A stretch of 64,000 nucleotides of DNA from Dermacoccus abyssi (lineage in GTDB: Bacteria > Actinomycetota > Actinomycetes > Actinomycetales > Dermatophilaceae): the NCBI RefSeq assembly GCF_003515945.1, contig NZ_QWLM01000009.1, forward strand, positions 1 through 64,000, read 5' to 3'. Positions 1,436-47,889 of the stretch are shown here, one piece after another (position 1 is the stretch's first letter; each line of letters begins with the position of its first letter). The notes under the pieces are model-generated. The model saw only the letters and a program-made list of their open reading frames with translations. It did no database searches and was not told where the DNA came from. Made by a program: the position numbers and the translations under genes.

Positions 1436-2098
1436 CTACCGAGGCCTTGAACCACCGGTCAAAAAGAACGAAGTCGGGAGTTCGAAATAGTCGCCGGCGA
1501 CCTCATAGGAGGGCGCGGACTTAAAGTATCCGTTGCGATGAGAATCTTCAAACAAGGGGCATGAATCGTCCGCGACGATAGACCGCGCAACCCCCTTTGC
1601 CAAAACGTACTCTGCGTAATCATCGGGCAATGAATACAGAGAGAGGCCATCCGAGTGTTTGACCGAAAGCATAAAACTGGGCCCCTCGGTCGAAGTTATC
1701 GTCCACGTGAGCTTAGCTTCCAGAATAGATCTACTCTTCCTAACGGGGAAATCCAAGCGGAAGAAATCCTGCTCCACGCCCTCAAGTCGGCTCTTAAGCT
1801 CCGCCAAGTTGCCACTCGACAGTCGCCCAATCCCTTCGACAATTTGCACTAGGTAAGGAGGCGACGTCGGCCCTGAAGACAGCGTCATATCACTCAGCCG
1901 CGACTCTATCAGCGCCCTAGAATCAGTCATGTCTGCAACCAGGTAGCCTCTGGGCCCCACTAGAGGCCGCTCAAGGTTCGCCAATTCCACCGTTACGTGA
2001 CCCGCAGCGATCGCGGCTAACCAGAACGCCTCTCGGGGCAATTCTACAGTTCCCGGTGGAAGCCTGTCGTCAATCGTTACCACGCGAAGCTTGGACAT
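1436..2098 (-). CDS. Putative immunity protein for the RHS toxin
   Basis: This 220-residue protein has no signal peptide, membrane segment or family motif I recognise. It is proposed as the cognate immunity protein because it lies immediately downstream of the toxin tip on the same strand. Its ATG at 2098-2096 shares one base with the RHS stop codon (TGATG on the minus strand), implying translational coupling. A GTG three codons upstream (2107) is an alternative start. The protein is soluble and mixed alpha/beta-looking, ending in SFFLTGGSRPR. Base composition is visibly more AT-rich than the flanking genes, matching the adjacent toxin tip, as expected when a toxin tip and its immunity gene are exchanged as one unit. 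The function rests on position only. Confidence 0.6.
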   Translation of the reverse strand: MSKLRVVTIDDRLPPGTVELPREAFWLAAIAAGHVTVELANLERPLVGPRGYLVADMTDSRALIESRLSDMTLSSGPTSPPYLVQIVEGIGRLSSGNLAELKSRLEGVEQDFFRLDFPVRKSRSILEAKLTWTITSTEGPSFMLSVKHSDGLSLYSLPDDYAEYVLAKGVARSIVADDSCPLFEDSHRNGYFKSAPSYEVAGDYFELPTSFFLTGGSRPR

Positions 2099-2511
2099 CA
2101 AGAACACCCCTTACTGCTTCCAGTCTTATGCCCGGGTGGGCACTTTCCATTTCTATAGTAATACTTTGCTATCAACGTCATCTCCACGGTTCTTGCCTCG
2201 TAGTAAGAGTATCTAATGCCCTTCTTTCGCCATTTGCAAATGGTTCTACCCCAGGCTTGACAGGCATATATCTGATTTTGGGCACGCTTCCAACTAACCC
2301 CCGAAATACCATACTTCCAAGTTCGCCAAAAACCTCCACCTAAAAATTGAATCTCGTAGATGAAATATTCACGGCGGAGTAGCGATTTTCGAGTTTTCTT
2401 GGGCTTAGCGATAGCATTCTTAGGCGGCTTGTAAGCGCGAGGAGCTGAGCCACGCTGACCATATTGGCCGGCCCTTCCCGGCGCGACAAAACCTCCGCCT
2501 TCGACAGAGCG
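2098..2511 (-). other. Toxin tip of the RHS protein, GIY-YIG/URI-like nuclease domain
   Basis: This is the variable C-terminal region after the conserved DTTGLH motif. A basic linker (KPKKTRKSLLRRE) leads into YFIYEI, TWKYGISG, an Arg in WKRAQ, TVEMTLIAKYYY and KCPPGHK. The order, a Y-I-Y strand, a YGI strand, an Arg helix, a Glu in a helix and a PPG turn, resembles the GIY-YIG/URI nuclease fold used as a toxin domain in polymorphic toxins. The likely metal-binding Glu is residue ~2221. The tip is more AT-rich than the core, indicating separate exchange. Nuclease assignment is from motif pattern only. Confidence 0.62.
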
Positions 2512-5500
2512 GTGCAGGCCTGTCGTATCCCGCAAGTTTAGCGGGTCGTTCGGGTATGCGTAGCTGGTCTCGTTGCCGCCGTAGACGGGATCGAGGCTGG
2601 TGAAGAGTCCGCGTTGGTTGTTGTAGACGCGGGCTCCCATGAGGGTCAGGCCAGCGGTGTCCGGGGTGGTGGCGCGTTGGTGGGCGCCGAGCCATCCGTA
2701 CCCGAGGACACCGCTGCTCGCATTGGTGCCTGTGGTGCCGCCGGTGGTGGGTTGGCCGTACTCGCTGTACGTGCTCCAGTCCGTGATCGAGGTCGCGGGC
2801 GTGTTCGTGCCGTTCACGGCCGCGATCTCAAGGCTAGTGGCGGTGTTGCCGTTCGGGTCGATCAGCGCGATGTTCGCCTTGCCGGTCTCGTCGAGCATCG
2901 CGCCGAGGGAGCCGCTGACGGAGTCGGTGTACCGCTCGAGCCCGCCACCACTGAGTTCCACCCAGGACGGGTTGTCCGAGTCATCGGTGTAGTGCCGCGT
3001 CAGCGTCGTCGCTGCGCCACTGCTCGGCGTTGACGTCTGCGCCTTACGCCGCCCCGCCGAATCCAGTGTGAACGTCGTGACGGTGCCGCCCTGGCTGATC
3101 TTCTGAATCGAGTCGTCCAGGTAGTAGCCGAGCGTCACGTCACCCGCTCCTGGGTTTGGGGCATCCGCCTTCGGCATCAGAGTTTGGCGACCGAATGCGT
3201 CGTAGGTGTACGAGCCGGCACCGTTCTTGCCGGTCGTGGGACGGTCAGCATCGTCGTACGCCATCGTCGCCGATGTGCTCGTCGTGTTGGCCGTGCCGGC
3301 GCAGTCACCGTCAGCGTGGGTGGTTTCGTTGCTAGCGGTGCGGTTACCGTTCGCGTCGAAGGTGTACGTGCGCGCCGCGCACGCCGCGTCCGCACTGACC
3401 TTGGTGTCGGGGTCGATCGCACCCGCACCGGCGGCCTTTTCACGGTCGGTGACCTTCGTCAGGCGCGACAAGCCGTCGTAGGAGTATTCCTTGTCGTACG
3501 CCTTGCCCGTGCCGACGCTCATGTGGCTGGTGTCGCCGTCTTCAGCGATGCCCGGGTCGCCGTCGAACGCCGCACCCGCGCCGGTGTACTGACGCGCCAC
3601 GCGGCCCAGCCCGTCGCGCTCTTGCGTCCACGCCATCCAGGTACCGGTCGTCGGCGTACCGGGCGTCCAGCTCACCGTGCCGTCATCAGCCGTCGTCGCG
3701 GTGACCGGGGTGACCTGCCCCTCGTACGAAAGGCCCGTCACTTCACCGAGGGTGTTGGTGTCGGTGCGTGCGGTGACGAATCCGGGCATGTCTTCCTGCA
3801 TGATCTTGCCGTCAATGTCGAACGCCGCACCGTAGGTCAGGTCACCACCAGTACCGGGGCGTGTCACGCTCATGCCGGTGACGAGGCCGCGGCGCTCCGT
3901 CTTGCCGGCCGCGTCGGTGCCGTCATAGGTGTACGCCGTTGTGCCCTTCGGATCGGACACGCTCGCGACGGCACCGTCAACACCGTACGTCGTCGTCGCG
4001 CTCTCACCGGACTCGTTCGTGTAGGAGGTCTTGCGGCCCCAGTTGTCATAGCCGGTGCTGATGCGATTGCTCGTCGCGTCGGTGCCAGCGTCGTTGGCGT
4101 CACCCGTGTAGTCGACCAGGCCGACCGTGTTGTAGTGCGTGAACGTCGCAGGAATCGCCGTTGCGCCCGGGATGCTGCCAGTGGCCTTCACGAGGACCGG
4201 GCGAGCCGCCGCGTCGTATCTCGTCGTCGTGGTGCGATTCGCGCTGCCGGATGCCTCGACGACAGTGGTGGGGTTGAGCCACATGTCCATGCCCGTGGTG
4301 CGTGCGTCAGGCAGACTCGGCCCGCTCGAGGGCGCAGTACCGGGGAAGACTCGGCACGGTGAGCCGGCCCATTCGGGCTTGTTCCCACATTGCGCGTCAT
4401 CACTGTTCGTACCGGCGGTGTAGAACACCGTGCGACGAGTTCCCGCAGAAGCGGTCGAGGTGGCCTTTGGCTGGCGCTCCTCGATCGTGCGCCCAGCAGA
4501 GTCGTAGCGCGTCGTGCGCGTCACCCCGCCCGTCGTCACTGTCGTCGGCATGCCGAGGCTCCAGCCGTCGGTGTCGCCGCTGCTGATGGCGGCGTACCCG
4601 TTCGTCGTCTTCGACAGCTCACTCAGCTGTGTGCCGGCGTTGTCGATGACCGACGCGGTCACGGTCGTCGCCAGCGAGTACGGCTGCCCCGTCGCGGGGT
4701 TCACACCACTGTTCGGCGCGCCCTGGTCGTAGTCGGTGTGCACCTTCTTACGCGCCGTCACCAACGCGCCACCGACACTCATCTGTGACGCGGGCGTGAA
4801 CACGTCCACCACGCGCGAACCCGCAGGCAACGTCACCGTACCGGAGGCGTCCTTGATGTCGTCGTTGTAGATCGTGCTCGTCGCGTAGAAGTCGCTCGTC
4901 GACTTGACCTCGGCCGCGTCCGCACCATCCGGGGTCGCGTCGAGGGCAGCCTTGATGCCCTGCGGCGTCAGCGTACGGATCGGGTTGCCCTGCGCGTCAT
5001 AGTCGCTGGAGCTGACGAGCCACTGCCCCGCACCGTACTCAGCGCTGTTCACTTCATAGTTGTTCGCATCGACGTAGGACAGCGACGCGTACGACCAGTC
5101 GCCCGCACTGATGTTTGATGCGTTGGTGCTGCTGACGGGGTGGTCTTGGCCGAACACCGCGTACCCCGTCGCCGGGACGGAAGCCTGGGCCCACTTCGCA
5201 ACATCCGTCGCGCCGAGGGACGGCAAGGAACTGTTGCCCGTGGCGGGCACGCCATAGACGAACGAGTACAACGCAGCGCTGTTGCCGCCGGTGGTGGCTG
5301 CGTCGCGAGTGATCTGCTTGACCTTCTTGTCCCCGTCATAGGTGATGCGGAACGCGGCCTGACCTGAAGGGGCGATCGACGCTAGGCGGGTGGAGTCACC
5401 GTCCCACGTGTAGCTCGTCGACAGGTTCGAGCGCGGGTCGGTCACCTTCACCAGGCGCTTGTTGCTGTCGTAGGTGTACGTCGCGACGGGCGTGGACTTC

Positions 5501-8500
5501 ATCGCGTTCGAGGCCGGGTCCCACAGGTACGCGCTGGCGCTCTTGACCTGCCCCGTCACGTCACCATTACCGGTGCTCGCGCCGTAGGTGATGTCCAGGG
5601 CACGGCAACCCTTCTTCGTCAACGCTCCCGTGCCGGGGCAGTCGGCGGAGGTAAAGCCGTCGGGCAGTCCGGACAGGATGCGCGTGACACGGCCGGTGCC
5701 GTCACGTGTGTAGGTTGTCGTGCCGGCCGTACCGGGCTCAGCGACCTTCGACACACCCCACTGACCGTTCGTCAACGTGTACGTCGTGACCGTCTTGTCG
5801 TCCTCGGTCACTGTCATGGACGTGCCGCCCGTCGCGACGACGAGCTTCAGGCCCGAGTCGACGGTGTCCTGCGTGATCGGTTCGTAGGTGCCCGCGAGGT
5901 CCTTCGTGCGCCCACCACCAGGCTGACCGAACACCAACACGCTGCCGTCGGTGTCGGCGAGGATCATCGTGCCGTCCGTAGCGGTCTGGTCGATGACGCT
6001 CATGCCGCCGAGGCCCGCGTCGGGGCCGTCGAGGTTGGCGCTGAAGCCGGGACCGAAGACCTGATCGGCGATCGTGGTCGGCCACCCGTTCAGGGTGCCG
6101 TCACCAGCGAACGATAGGTGCGAACGCGACAGCGTCAGGTCACCGGCCAGGCCGGGGACGGACGCGTCGGAACCGTCGACGTTGAGTTCACCGGTGACCT
6201 GGGCGACCTGCCCGAACCCAGTGTCCTGCGTCGGGAAGGTGCTACCGAACGCATGCGGAAGGCGGGTGATGCGCTCTGCGGTGCCATCCCACGTGCACTG
6301 CGGCGTCGAGTTGCCCGGGTAGGTGAAGCACACCTGCACATCCAGGGTGACCGGAACGCGCGGGTTCAGGCTCGAACCGTCCTTACGCGTCGTCGCCGTC
6401 GCGGTGTCGAACGTGCCATCAGCCTTCGCCACACCACTACTGACGGTCACCGGCAGAGACGGGCCGTCAACCCACTCCGCGCTCGTGGAACTCGTCCCGG
6501 TGACGCGCCACTGCACCTTCGCCGTGGGCGTGGACGAGCCCTGACCGGCCGCGGTCACGCGCACCTTGCCCGACGTGGACGCGCCGTTGACCGGCGAGGA
6601 GACCGTGGCTTTACCCCACCCGAAGCTCGAGGTCGTCGACGCGGACAGGTTCGAACCACCCACGGCGACCGCGCGCACCGAGTGCGCACCGTTCGCCTTC
6701 GGAACCGTCACCGTCGTCGACGTCGCGGTCTGCTTCGCGTCGATCGTCTTCGTCGGCGTCGCAGCACCATCAACATAAATGTCGAGGCGCGTCGCGGCCC
6801 TCACGCCCGAACCCGACGTGGAGACGGTGCACGAGACATCCGCGCTGGGCCCGGTCTGCGCCCACGACCCGTTCGCGTAGTTCGGGCACGAGATGCTCGG
6901 CGCGGCCGGCGCCGTACCGGCGCGCTTGATCGTCGTCCACCCCGACCACGACGAGTTACTCAACCCAAGCTCATCGCTCGCCTTGGCGCGCACGTAATAC
7001 GTGCCACCATCCGGAAGGTCCGTCGCATTAGCGCAACTGACCTTCGCACCCGAAGCACCCAACCCGCTCGTACACGAGGCCACCAACGACGACGAACTCG
7101 TCGTCGTCGAGTTGTGGATCTCGAACGTGGCCTTGACTCGCGACGCGTCCGGGTCAGTGATGACACTCGAGAACGTCACCTTGCCACCCTGCACATACCC
7201 GACACTGCCGTACGTGCCGTTGGCGACGAACGACGGCGCAGCCGCCACATTCGGAGCCCGGTTGTACGTGTACGTCAACTGCGGCGGATTCGACGTCTCT
7301 GACGACGCGAAACGCTTCCACCCGTTCGAGTCCTTCTCATTGTTCGCCTGCAACGCAAGCGAGCCGTTCGACCACCCCGACGACGTGAAGTCCTTCACCG
7401 CCTGCGTGACGTCGATTGCCTGACGCCCGGCCGGACACGTCGAGGCGTTTGCGCCCTTCGCGAATGACGCTGAACCCCCGGAGGCGTACACATTCGGCTG
7501 CGACGTCCACCGGGTCGCCGACGAAGCGGCCGCAGAGCGGCCCACATCAAGACGCGAGGGTGTGCACGACCACGACCACGTCGAGTACAACGACAACGAC
7601 GCTGACACCACCTGCTTACCGGCAAGCCCGGCCAACGGGAAGTTCAGATACGAACGCGCGACCGTTGCCCCGCCGTTAAACGTGCCCGCACGCAGCTCGC
7701 TGTCCGTGGAATGGTCCGAACTCGAATCAGACTGAACCCACGTGTCAAAACTCGCGTTGATGCTTCCCGAGGCGTACGTCGGATCGATCGTGATCGGGAA
7801 CTGACGCGCACCGCTTCGAGCCCACCCCGCATCGACGGAGACCGTGATGATGGCCTTGTTCTTCCCCTTCGACGTCACATCAAGGCGCGTGTCCGTCGTG
7901 CTCGCCGGAATGCCTGCCTTCTCGATGACCTTCGCGTCCCACGCACCCGGCGCCGCGACATGCGACACCACCTTGCCGTCACCATCGACGAACGAAACCG
8001 AACCATCCGCTTCCTTCTTCGCGCTCACCCCATCGAGCTTGACGGGAAACTCAACCGCCAGGCGCCCCTTCGCCGGCCCGTTCTTCGCGATCAAACGCTC
8101 AACAGTCTTCGCGTCCTTGACATCGACAAACGTCTCCATGCCCCGCCGCAACGCCTGCACCCGGTAATCCACACCCGAATCAGCGTTGGCATACGTCGCT
8201 TCGCTGCCCTTCAACTTCGGCTTCGGCAACTTCTTCGGCCACCCGAACACCACACTCGTGTTCACGTCCGGCTTCACCTCGAGCGCGTCTACCCCCTGAT
8301 CGGCCGTGACGCGCGCACTACCTCCGCTCGCCGAGGCATCCCCCGCACCCAGCGTGATCTCGTTCTTCACCGACTTCGGCGCAACCGTGCCATCCGACTG
8401 CTCCACGAGCGTCAGGTCGATGTTCTTCCACGCACCCTGATCGTCCTTGAACCGGGTCGGTGCCGACGTCGCCTTCGTCGTCATCGTCCCGTCCGGGTTC

Positions 8501-8844
8501 GCGAACGTCTGCGAGGTCTCCGAACGCAACGACTCGACCTCAACAGGCGACCCCTGCGCGCGAGCCGACACCGCTGCCGACGTCTCATCCGGGCGCGACG
8601 ACACCCTCGTCTGCTTCTTGGCCTCACCAAACGCCGGCTTCACCGCACCAGCCGCCGTAGCGACAGGCGATGCCTCGATCGAGAACGTCACACCGATCAG
8701 AGCGCACAACGCCCACGCGAGCCAACGCCACGGCGAACGAACACGATCACGGCCGAGGAAGAACGAGGAACTGCCGCCAGCAGGCATAGGGGGTGTCCGA
8801 TCAAGAGAACACGACGAGGCACACAGACGTGAGCAAGGACACAT
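2098..8844 (-). CDS. Secreted RHS/YD-repeat polymorphic toxin
   Basis: The protein has 2248 residues if it starts at 8844; an ATG at 8787 gives a tighter signal peptide and is equally plausible. Basic residues and a hydrophobic helix (WRWLAWALCALIGV) before an Ala-rich cleavage region indicate Sec export. Residues ~360-528 match the DNRLRE module of actinobacterial RHS proteins. The RHS core starts near residue 880, with many YD repeats (for example TYTYDSNKRL, SYDGLSRLTK, YTYDAFGRQ) from ~1050 to ~2100. The conserved core terminus (GLTLMGARVYN, YAYPNDPLNL, DTTGLH) ends at about residue 2111. A variable 137-residue tip follows. RHS cores form a shell that encloses and releases the C-terminal toxin in interbacterial competition. 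The coupled immunity gene follows directly. Confidence 0.93.
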   Translation of the reverse strand: MCPCSRLCASSCSLDRTPPMPAGGSSSFFLGRDRVRSPWRWLAWALCALIGVTFSIEASPVATAAGAVKPAFGEAKKQTRVSSRPDETSAAVSARAQGSPVEVESLRSETSQTFANPDGTMTTKATSAPTRFKDDQGAWKNIDLTLVEQSDGTVAPKSVKNEITLGAGDASASGGSARVTADQGVDALEVKPDVNTSVVFGWPKKLPKPKLKGSEATYANADSGVDYRVQALRRGMETFVDVKDAKTVERLIAKNGPAKGRLAVEFPVKLDGVSAKKEADGSVSFVDGDGKVVSHVAAPGAWDAKVIEKAGIPASTTDTRLDVTSKGKNKAIITVSVDAGWARSGARQFPITIDPTYASGSINASFDTWVQSDSSSDHSTDSELRAGTFNGGATVARSYLNFPLAGLAGKQVVSASLSLYSTWSWSCTPSRLDVGRSAAASSATRWTSQPNVYASGGSASFAKGANASTCPAGRQAIDVTQAVKDFTSSGWSNGSLALQANNEKDSNGWKRFASSETSNPPQLTYTYNRAPNVAAAPSFVANGTYGSVGYVQGGKVTFSSVITDPDASRVKATFEIHNSTTTSSSSLVASCTSGLGASGAKVSCANATDLPDGGTYYVRAKASDELGLSNSSWSGWTTIKRAGTAPAAPSISCPNYANGSWAQTGPSADVSCTVSTSGSGVRAATRLDIYVDGAATPTKTIDAKQTATSTTVTVPKANGAHSVRAVAVGGSNLSASTTSSFGWGKATVSSPVNGASTSGKVRVTAAGQGSSTPTAKVQWRVTGTSSTSAEWVDGPSLPVTVSSGVAKADGTFDTATATTRKDGSSLNPRVPVTLDVQVCFTYPGNSTPQCTWDGTAERITRLPHAFGSTFPTQDTGFGQVAQVTGELNVDGSDASVPGLAGDLTLSRSHLSFAGDGTLNGWPTTIADQVFGPGFSANLDGPDAGLGGMSVIDQTATDGTMILADTDGSVLVFGQPGGGRTKDLAGTYEPITQDTVDSGLKLVVATGGTSMTVTEDDKTVTTYTLTNGQWGVSKVAEPGTAGTTTYTRDGTGRVTRILSGLPDGFTSADCPGTGALTKKGCRALDITYGASTGNGDVTGQVKSASAYLWDPASNAMKSTPVATYTYDSNKRLVKVTDPRSNLSTSYTWDGDSTRLASIAPSGQAAFRITYDGDKKVKQITRDAATTGGNSAALYSFVYGVPATGNSSLPSLGATDVAKWAQASVPATGYAVFGQDHPVSSTNASNISAGDWSYASLSYVDANNYEVNSAEYGAGQWLVSSSDYDAQGNPIRTLTPQGIKAALDATPDGADAAEVKSTSDFYATSTIYNDDIKDASGTVTLPAGSRVVDVFTPASQMSVGGALVTARKKVHTDYDQGAPNSGVNPATGQPYSLATTVTASVIDNAGTQLSELSKTTNGYAAISSGDTDGWSLGMPTTVTTGGVTRTTRYDSAGRTIEERQPKATSTASAGTRRTVFYTAGTNSDDAQCGNKPEWAGSPCRVFPGTAPSSGPSLPDARTTGMDMWLNPTTVVEASGSANRTTTTRYDAAARPVLVKATGSIPGATAIPATFTHYNTVGLVDYTGDANDAGTDATSNRISTGYDNWGRKTSYTNESGESATTTYGVDGAVASVSDPKGTTAYTYDGTDAAGKTERRGLVTGMSVTRPGTGGDLTYGAAFDIDGKIMQEDMPGFVTARTDTNTLGEVTGLSYEGQVTPVTATTADDGTVSWTPGTPTTGTWMAWTQERDGLGRVARQYTGAGAAFDGDPGIAEDGDTSHMSVGTGKAYDKEYSYDGLSRLTKVTDREKAAGAGAIDPDTKVSADAACAARTYTFDANGNRTASNETTHADGDCAGTANTTSTSATMAYDDADRPTTGKNGAGSYTYDAFGRQTLMPKADAPNPGAGDVTLGYYLDDSIQKISQGGTVTTFTLDSAGRRKAQTSTPSSGAATTLTRHYTDDSDNPSWVELSGGGLERYTDSVSGSLGAMLDETGKANIALIDPNGNTATSLEIAAVNGTNTPATSITDWSTYSEYGQPTTGGTTGTNASSGVLGYGWLGAHQRATTPDTAGLTLMGARVYNNQRGLFTSLDPVYGGNETSYAYPNDPLNLRDTTGLHRSVEGGGFVAPGRAGQYGQRGSAPRAYKPPKNAIAKPKKTRKSLLRREYFIYEIQFLGGGFWRTWKYGISGVSWKRAQNQIYACQAWGRTICKWRKKGIRYSYYEARTVEMTLIAKYYYRNGKCPPGHKTGSSKGCS

Positions 8845-45874: not shown

Positions 45875-46564
45875 TCAGGCGAGTTCGTCGATCCACGCAC
45901 CGACGCGCAGGTCGGTGACGGCGTCGTACACGGCCACCGCGCCCGCGTCCTTCAGCTCCGCGGCGGAGAAACCGCCGGTGCGGACGGCGACGCAGAGCAT
46001 GCCCGGCTGCGGCACGCGACCGGCCGATTCGGCGTCCCAGGTGGCGTCACCGACGAGCACACCGCGTCGGCCACCGGCCTCCTCGAGTGCCGCGACGAGG
46101 ATGTCCGGCTCCGGTTTGCTGTTGTCCGCGTCGTCGGAGGAGGTGACGGCGTCGACGTCGTCCCGCGTGAGCCCGAGCTTCTCGAGCGCGGCGTCCGTGA
46201 ACTCACTCTTACCCGAGCTCGCGAGCGCCACCTTGTAGCCCTTCTCCTGCACGGCCCGCACGGCGTCGGCCGCCCCGTCGAAGGCCCGCAGGTCTGGCAG
46301 CATCTGGCGGTACTCGCCCTCCCACGCGGTGCGCAGTTCGTCGCCGAGGCGCTCCTCGACGTCGTCGCCGACGACGCTCGGCACGAGCTGGTCGCCGCCC
46401 ATGCCCACGGCGCGGTGGATGCGCCACATCGGCGGGTGGAGGTCGTGCTGCGCGAAGGCGCGCGACCACGCGACGGCGTGGCGGTAGGTGGAATCGATCA
46501 GCGTGCCGTCGACGTCGAACAGGACGGTGTCGATGGCCTCCGCGGCCTCATCGTGCGTACTCAT
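45875..46564 (-). CDS. HAD-family hydrolase (phosphoglycolate phosphatase-like)
   Basis: The 229-residue HAD enzyme has motif I TVLFDVDGTLIDS, motif II VALASSGKS, motif III lysine in NSKPEPDIL and motif IV GVLVGDATWDAESA, so all catalytic residues are present. The alpha-helical C1 cap between motifs I and II fits the beta-phosphoglucomutase/phosphoglycolate phosphatase group. Substrate unknown. ATG 46564 (MSTHDEAAEA) is favoured over 46576. Confidence 0.9.
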   Translation of the reverse strand: MSTHDEAAEAIDTVLFDVDGTLIDSTYRHAVAWSRAFAQHDLHPPMWRIHRAVGMGGDQLVPSVVGDDVEERLGDELRTAWEGEYRQMLPDLRAFDGAADAVRAVQEKGYKVALASSGKSEFTDAALEKLGLTRDDVDAVTSSDDADNSKPEPDILVAALEEAGGRRGVLVGDATWDAESAGRVPQPGMLCVAVRTGGFSAAELKDAGAVAVYDAVTDLRVGAWIDELA

Positions 46565-46579
46565 GCGATCAGCCAACCG

Positions 46580-46626: not shown

Positions 46627-47889
46627 TCAGTCACGCAGAGCCGCGAGGGCCGCGGCGCCACCGGAGACGAGCGAGAAGAAGATGACGAACACGAGGCCCC
46701 AGCCCACCGACGCGACGTCACTGACATTGCCGTAGTCGATGAGCCCGACGATGAAGGAGATCGCAGCGGCGACCACGATGCCCCACAGGAACTTCGCCGG
46801 AACCTTGCCGAGAAGGTGCGCGACACCGAGGCCGATGATGGCGAGCGACAGCAGCAGGACGATGACGCCGTCGCCGTTCATGCCCGAGACCGAGCTGCCC
46901 CACACGCTGGCCCACGGGCCGAGGCATCCGATGATGACGAAGAACTGCGCCGCGAGGGAGGCGAGCAGGCCGACGCGCCCGATGCGCAGCGACCCGTCCG
47001 GGTTCTTCACCTGCAGGGCTGCGGCAGCACCCTGGCCGCCGGCACCGAACGGGCTGTTCGCGTTGTTCGCGTCACCGCCCTGCCAGGCGTTGTTCTGGCC
47101 GTACTGTCCGTTGTGGCCGGGCTGACCGTTCTGGTGGCCCTGCCCGCTCTGACCCGGGAAGCCGTACTGGTTCTGGCCGTACTGACCGCCGCCCTGCGGG
47201 GCGGAGTCGTACTGGTTCTGATGGGTCGAGAAGCCCTGGCCGATCGACGAGTTCGCACCCTGGGAATTCTGGCCGTACTGCGCGTTCTCGGTCTGGTTGG
47301 GCTGACCGTACTGGCCACCCTGCGGCGTCGAACCGTAGGAGTTCTGACCGTACTGACCACTCGACGGCGGGGCGGAGTCGTACCGGTTCTGGTTGCTCTG
47401 CGGGCTCGACGAGCCGTAGCCCGCATCGCCTTGGGGCGCCGAGCCGTACTGGGGCGAGCCGTACTGGTTCTGTTCGTTCGAGAAGCCCTGACCGATCGAC
47501 GAGTTGTTCTGCCCGTACTGCTGGCCCTGAGCGTTGGCGCCGTAGGGAGACTGGCCGTACTGTCCACCCTGCTGCTGCCCGTTCTGGCCACCCGCCGCGG
47601 GAGCCGAACCGTACTGAGCCTGGTCACCGGCATTCTGGGTGCCCGACTCGTTGGGAGCGGTGAAGGCCCGCGTGCGGTCCTCCGAGGAGTCGTTCTGTCC
47701 CGTCGTGCCGGTGTTCTGGGCGCCTGACTCGTTGGGGGCGGTGAACGCGCGGGTGCGCTCTTCGGACGAGTCGTGCGGGGCCTCGGCGTTGTTGCTCCCC
47801 TGAGCCGGCGAGGCACCCCACTGACGGGTCGCGTCGTCCTCCTGCCCGGGCGTGCCCTGCTCGCGCTTGGTCCAGTCGTTGTCGCTCAT
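46627..47889 (-). CDS. Membrane protein with prion-like Gln/Asn/Gly/Tyr-rich N-terminus
   Basis: The 420-residue protein has ~285 residues of low-complexity Q/N/G/S/Y-rich sequence with at least seven QYGQ units, two copies of DSSEERTRAFTAPNES (the second with DRT) and two copies of NSSIGQGFS. The C-terminal ~130 residues hold about four membrane helices (LLASLAAQFFVIIGCLG, GVIVLLLSLAIIGLGVA, FLWGIVVAAAISFIVGLI and WGLVFVIFFSLVSGG). The N-terminus is probably cytoplasmic. Such sequence composition favours phase separation or protein assembly. Family unknown; the RTRAFTAP repeats contain Thr residues that could be phosphorylated. It is divergent from the next membrane gene. Confidence 0.75.
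   Translation of the reverse strand: MSDNDWTKREQGTPGQEDDATRQWGASPAQGSNNAEAPHDSSEERTRAFTAPNESGAQNTGTTGQNDSSEDRTRAFTAPNESGTQNAGDQAQYGSAPAAGGQNGQQQGGQYGQSPYGANAQGQQYGQNNSSIGQGFSNEQNQYGSPQYGSAPQGDAGYGSSSPQSNQNRYDSAPPSSGQYGQNSYGSTPQGGQYGQPNQTENAQYGQNSQGANSSIGQGFSTHQNQYDSAPQGGGQYGQNQYGFPGQSGQGHQNGQPGHNGQYGQNNAWQGGDANNANSPFGAGGQGAAAALQVKNPDGSLRIGRVGLLASLAAQFFVIIGCLGPWASVWGSSVSGMNGDGVIVLLLSLAIIGLGVAHLLGKVPAKFLWGIVVAAAISFIVGLIDYGNVSDVASVGWGLVFVIFFSLVSGGAAALAALRD

Follow-up and report, generated by a model that had tools for sequence, protein, structure and literature searches.

Rv0954, ranked by its authors as a mycobacterial core gene, encodes a protein with four membrane helices, a Pro/Gln-rich cytoplasmic tail and a predicted N-in/C-in topology. 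The protein is reported to be found at mid-cell, to co-purify with PknH, LamA and PbpA, and to bear four phosphosites in its tail (PMC8093794). For Rv1747 of M. tuberculosis, a review states that phosphorylation by PknF lowers the droplet threshold and that PstP reverses this (PMC9312465). Ser/Thr kinases of M. tuberculosis recognize a consensus made of an acidic run, T, x, x or V, and a large hydrophobic residue, as given in a second review (PMC6888350).

The tail gene and its surroundings

The window (the whole stretch of 64,000 nucleotides that was analysed) encoded on its minus strand a 420-residue protein, P0001, whose open reading frame spanned exactly positions 46627-47889. The features of the gene, and the next gene on the same strand, are as follows.

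46627..47889, minus strand: whole gene of P0001, 420 residues, ATG start
47023..47889, minus strand: disordered Q/N/G/S/Y-rich tail, residues 1-289 (from composition and very low AlphaFold2 confidence)
47818..47844, minus strand: putative kinase site 1, QEDDATRQW (T21), by match to the consensus in PMC6888350
47713..47769, minus strand: repeat copy 1, SSEERTRAFTAPNESGAQN, with putative kinase site 2 (T46)
47632..47688, minus strand: repeat copy 2, SSEDRTRAFTAPNESGTQN, with putative kinase site 3 (T73)
47551..47562, minus strand: QYGQ unit, residue 110
47509..47520, minus strand: QYGQ unit, residue 124
47479..47505, minus strand: NSSIGQGFS repeat copy 1, residue 129
47344..47355, minus strand: QYGQ unit, residue 179
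47302..47313, minus strand: QYGQ unit, residue 193
47269..47280, minus strand: QYGQ unit, residue 204
47227..47253, minus strand: NSSIGQGFS repeat copy 2, residue 213
47173..47184, minus strand: QYGQ unit, residue 236
47095..47106, minus strand: QYGQ unit, residue 262
46630..47022, minus strand: four-helix membrane domain, a distant relative of Pfam DUF5336 (from Pfam, hhalign, hydropathy and AlphaFold2)
45875..46576, minus strand: HAD-family hydrolase, next gene on the same strand as P0001, order kept in the congeneric genome

The original prediction had described about 285 residues rich in Gln, Asn, Gly, Ser and Tyr ahead of the membrane helices, and this region was recovered as residues 1-289, where the five amino acids accounted for 63% of the sequence. 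Q, N, G, S and Y reached 17.3, 10.4, 18.7, 11.1 and 5.5%, respectively (sampled proteome, 2.8, 2.2, 9.0, 5.8 and 2.0%); Tyr was recurrent, charged and aliphatic residues were very few, and Leu, Val and Cys were absent altogether. Among 367 genes in a 464-kb sample of the 3.16-Mb genome, called by a custom codon-usage script, P0001 displayed the highest Q/N/G/S/Y density in a 200-residue window (0.75; next 0.48). Prion-like sequences are commonly recognized as Q/N-rich stretches with 30 or more such residues in 80. P0001 held 30 in 80, tied first of the 367 with an RDD protein (30) likewise equipped with a QYGQ tail, and followed by a third gene with 15, and the prion-like character ascribed to this membrane-anchored protein was borne out as a matter of composition.

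QYGQ occurred exactly seven times in the tail (at least seven had been claimed), and at most twice in any of 2000 composition-preserving shuffles. The paired longer repeats also predicted were RTRAFTAPNESG, at residues 45 and 72, and NSSIGQGFS, at residues 129 and 213; the former, with 12 residues, was the longest exact repeat of the tail (8 at most in shuffles). Both hydropathy and AlphaFold2 agreed with the prediction of four membrane helices after the tail, and the single-sequence AlphaFold2 model placed them at residues 305-331, 340-359, 365-385 and 389-419. Run without an alignment, the model had a mean pLDDT of 43.8, with the tail below 50 and the helices mostly between 50 and 70.

Positive charges were located on the N side of TM1, in the TM2-TM3 loop and at the C-terminus, so that P0001 is predicted to be N-in/C-in, with its tail inside the cell. 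Repetitive Q/N/G/S/Y sequences are generally known from surface proteins too, which would suit an extracellular tail acting in the wall or in adhesion. We consider such an arrangement very improbable, as the distribution of positive charges would leave both termini and the TM2-TM3 loop inside, and hydropathy displayed no hydrophobic N-terminal segment in P0001. It also fits poorly with Rv0954, predicted to be N-in/C-in and phosphorylated in its tail (PMC8093794).

The neighbors of P0001 were the HAD hydrolase, a GABA-permease-like (amino-acid permease) transporter and a protein with a weak DUF7269 match only; no division gene adjoined P0001 among these neighbors, and no perM operon was found among the neighboring genes examined. 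The same gene order was found in the congeneric genome: permease, HAD hydrolase, tail gene, membrane protein and iron-alcohol-dehydrogenase-like gene (the last label given by eye). Of 38 genomes, 10 had relatives of the HAD neighbor (E <= 1e-30), and two of these 10 belong to the same genus. At the other eight loci, no tail protein was encoded by the frames examined in about 1.5 kb on each side, a set restricted by omission of frames with low third-position GC. Elsewhere in the window (2098-8844), a 2248-aa RHS/YD-repeat-like protein ended in a C-terminal segment that by eye looked unlike the repeats, and which is possibly a polymorphic toxin-type tip.

DUF5336 relatives, the orthologue and other tailed proteins

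We take Rv0954 to be a member of the Pfam family DUF5336 (PF17270), a name that was not found in a literature search of PMC papers. P0001 scored 11.5 bits against this family (E 0.4), under the gathering cut-off of 28.6, and its orthologue from the congeneric genome, P0002, scored 17.3-19.2 bits (E 0.0064 for the whole protein and 0.0016 for the domain alone), also under the cut-off; the whole P0001 genome contained no DUF5336 match at E 0.001. Profile comparison of the P0001 family with 12 DUF5336 members gave 94.1% by hhalign, over helices 2-4 only. The two-sequence and five-sequence profiles scored 34.6 and 49.3, above both sets of controls (56 multi-TM segments of the same genome, maximum 20.8; reversed profiles, maximum 19.8). 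Single sequences scored 38.4 (P0001) and only 25-28 (orthologue and paralogues). Because the Pfam score lay below the cut-off and yet the profile match stood above the controls, the helix domain is judged, from sequence profiles, to be a distant relative of DUF5336 and not a member.

DUF5336 matches at E <= 0.01 were obtained in 102 of 345 genomes of the class, 47 of which passed the cut-off, and the strongest family among the 345 is presumably mycobacterial. In the 29 of 30 loci that were read (L031 was left out), the four-helix domain of the DUF5336 proteins was flanked by Q/G/Y/P/S-rich tails, often with YGQ repeats; tails of 12 'diverse' members, chosen by hand with the sequences already known, had 43-62% Q/N/G/S/Y and up to 12 YGQ. 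The two-row family profile found matches in 5 of 186 genomes, and a search of the order found matches in 10 of 396. Two candidates were rejected: L015, where a stop was present and the best frame was not membrane-domain-like, and L087, a transporter probably matched by chance. Among the frames read across the order, a set without L082 and L085, the helix domain was present and the tail absent at L081, L083, L084 and L086, so the tail is not obligatory. L081, L083 and L084, from one genus of the order, are frames of about 140-155 aa with the four-helix domain almost alone, which makes them natural tail-less comparators.

Orthologues were compared through one sequence, P0002, from the only other species of the genus compared, scans of genome contigs having revealed no further orthologue of P0001. 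The membrane domains were 53% identical. The tail of P0002 had 221 residues and 4.1% Asn (10.4% in P0001), with one QYGQ versus seven and no RTRAF versus two; its longest repeat was 4 residues, within chance, and no TRAF block was present. All three kinase-type Thr sites of P0001 were absent, and inspection of P0002 revealed no T[QR]x[FWY]. Gene position, helix domain and rough composition were thus kept, and the repeats were not. The original prediction had staked itself on repeat number and composition being conserved in orthologues: the former was not, whereas the latter was roughly so in this one orthologue (51% Q/N/G/S/Y versus 63%).

Loss of the repeat number and motifs with persistence of the rough composition is what would be expected if the tail were only a spacer or entropic brush under loose constraint, disordered and soluble but lacking specific stickers and phospho-sites, with repeats produced by replication slippage and drift. 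This is the main rival explanation, unlikely in our judgement but to be taken seriously: the helix domain occurs elsewhere without a tail, and the NSSIGQGFS pair is nearly identical in DNA (1 synonymous and 2 non-synonymous codon differences over 14 codons), as a recent duplication would leave. The RTRAFTAP pair argues otherwise. With 9 synonymous and 2 non-synonymous differences in 19 codons it is not a fresh duplication and points to an old one in which the peptide was kept, and so many synonymous differences with the peptide almost unchanged argue for selection on the peptide. Recurrence of tails of the same kind on unrelated membrane domains is a further point against a mere spacer.

In the P0001 genome, the QYGQ-coding pattern was matched 17 times, against 4 for the reversed control. 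Fifteen of these matches fell in four genes, all encoding small membrane proteins with N-terminal tails: P0001 (7), an RDD protein on contig C8 (3), a 4-TM protein on C20 (2) and a 2-TM protein of 152 residues on C25, which matches no family (3). Of the other two, one lay close to the end of the 2248-aa RHS-like frame and one opposite a sugar-transferase-like frame on C16. The pattern was not enriched in the congeneric genome (6 matches versus 8 in the control), where four of the six fell in three tailed membrane-protein genes (L104, L106/L107, L108); the L105 and L109 matches lay in frames without a membrane helix and are probably due to chance.

Q/N/G-rich tails were also found in the C20 paralogue (L101 4109-5119) and in its second-species counterpart, both with a four-helix domain related to that of P0001 (hhalign, 95.0% between the P0001/P0002 pair and the C20 pair). 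A gene on C4 (L007 6634-8031) combined QYGSAPQGGQYNS-type repeats with a helix domain that matched the C20 pair (95.7%) but showed no direct match to the P0001 pair (9.6%); the C4 and C20 genes also had weak DUF4064 Pfam matches, under the cut-off. The C4 product, a membrane protein of 465 aa, has Q-rich stretches flanking its helices and QYGSAPQGGQYNSAPQGQYGAG repeats that are long and close to perfect, the longest exact one being at least 29 residues. The gene right beside the C20 paralogue, read in the same direction (L101 3442-3990), encoded a TM2-domain protein whose N-terminal tail is rich in Tyr, Pro, Gly and Ser.

Since tailed genes recur and tail-less relatives of the helix domain exist, the tail is a recurrent, fast-changing attachment and not a rare invention. 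The assertion that this design is unusual in bacteria was not supported: it recurs in mycobacterial DUF5336 proteins and, within the P0001 genome, in the RDD protein, the 2-TM protein and two other 4-TM proteins. P0001 is unusual-looking but not unique, with a similar design in its distant mycobacterial relatives. Such tails were not described in the titles and abstract openings of the literature on prion-like or low-complexity membrane proteins of bacteria and actinobacteria, nor in the available parts of two bacterial prion surveys.

Candidate phosphorylation sites and possible roles of the tail

At three threonines of P0001 (T21, T46 and T73), two or more of the five preceding residues were acidic and position +3 was aromatic, in agreement with the kinase-substrate motif (acidic upstream of T, large hydrophobic at +3). 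P0001 alone of the 367 proteins displayed three such strict sites (four others had two), and none of 5000 shuffles of its tail reached three. The broader motif T[QRT]x[FYW], defined with the sequences already known, was found in DUF5336 tails at 27 sites in 19 of 29 loci, most of them one family (shuffled mean 7.1, maximum 16 in 1000 shuffles). The P0001 genome harbored seven FHA matches and seven kinase-domain matches. On contig C12, fhaA, fhaB, a PP2C phosphatase, an FtsW/RodA protein, a penicillin-binding protein and a kinase followed in this order. Of these, fhaB passed its NCBIfam cut-off, and the phosphatase, FtsW/RodA and penicillin-binding proteins scored below the cut-offs of their specific NCBIfam models. 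The suggestion that the RTRAFTAP repeats are kinase targets therefore stood in part: the motif match, with acidic residues upstream and Phe at +3, and the kinases and FHA proteins of the genome speak for it, and the absence of the sites from P0002 speaks against it. The C12 kinase gene (L100 6638-8499) seemed to be split into two frames, a kinase domain (6638-7705) and a part that looked PASTA-like by eye (7702-8499), which could reflect a genuinely divided gene, a frameshift or a misassembly.

Our preferred reading, which may equally prove right or wrong, is that P0001 is an actinobacterial anchor distantly related to DUF5336 and Rv0954, and that its tail is a phospho-regulated multivalent scaffold. 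The four-helix anchor would hold the long disordered tail in the cytoplasm, where its Tyr/Gln/Asn-rich repeats would allow weak self-assembly, and co-assembly with similar tails of other membrane proteins. Membrane Ser/Thr kinases would phosphorylate the three N-terminal-proximal acidic-T-x-x-aromatic sites, creating or releasing docking sites for FHA domains, and the protein would probably act at the cell envelope or the division apparatus. Counting against such a scaffold are the sub-threshold DUF5336 score, the low single-sequence profile scores of the orthologue and paralogues, the restriction of the hhalign match to helices 2-4, the absence of the Thr sites from P0002 and its single QYGQ, the tail-less relatives, the lack of division genes among the neighbors and the post hoc choice of the T-motif. 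The same applies to Rv0954 itself, of which the phospho-null and phospho-mimetic forms remained at mid-cell and the deletion gave no visible growth or shape phenotype (PMC8093794).

The content of Q and N, the recurrent Tyr and the scarcity of charged and aliphatic residues would also suit a tail with an intrinsic capacity for phase separation or amyloid-like assembly at the membrane, tuned by phosphorylation. By analogy with Rv1747 (PMC9312465), condensation at the membrane by the P0001 tail is possible; however, composition by itself is no proof of assembly, and Rv1747 has FHA domains whereas Pfam found none in P0001, so that tail-driven assembly seems to us rather improbable. As a long shot, the QYG tails could be a shared 'sticker' tag of the genus, co-assembling DUF5336-like, RDD and 2-TM proteins into one kinase-controlled membrane condensate with P0001 as its phospho-switchable hub. 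Were the tails indeed to bring unrelated membrane proteins together, they would amount to a simple code for membrane condensates in bacteria. The analysis connects a seemingly exotic, prion-like protein of the membrane with Rv0954/DUF5336, a little-studied family, outside the mycobacteria. It also yields a testable rule, namely that T-[QRT]-x-[FYW] sites, as possible kinase/FHA docking points, are present in these tails.

Comparison with known systems

P0001 resembled Rv0954 by its four helices, its disordered, Gln-rich and predicted cytoplasmic tail, and a distant profile relation. Ser/Thr phosphorylation was shown for Rv0954 and is predicted for P0001; the main tail of Rv0954 follows the helices and is Pro/Gln-rich, while that of P0001 precedes them and is Gln/Asn/Gly/Ser-rich. 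Unlike Rv0954, P0001 was not beside perM and fell below the Pfam cut-off. Five DUF5336 proteins (L017, L029, L030, L042 and L043) shared with P0001 the YGQ repeats and the four-helix domain, and harbored T[QRT]xF sites in their tails; in contrast to P0001, these tails lay on both sides of the helices and contained little Asn. Within the genus of P0001, RDD and TM2 proteins as well as small 2-TM proteins (L075, L101, L103, L106 and L108) shared an N-terminal QYGQ- or Y/P/G/S-rich tail and a short membrane domain, although the RDD and TM2 domains are Pfam families unrelated to the domain of P0001. Rv1747 offers a works-like precedent, with a membrane anchor, a disordered cytoplasmic segment and control by kinase and phosphatase; it differs from P0001 by its FHA domains and ABC transporter, and the likeness is one of function, not drawn from sequence comparison.
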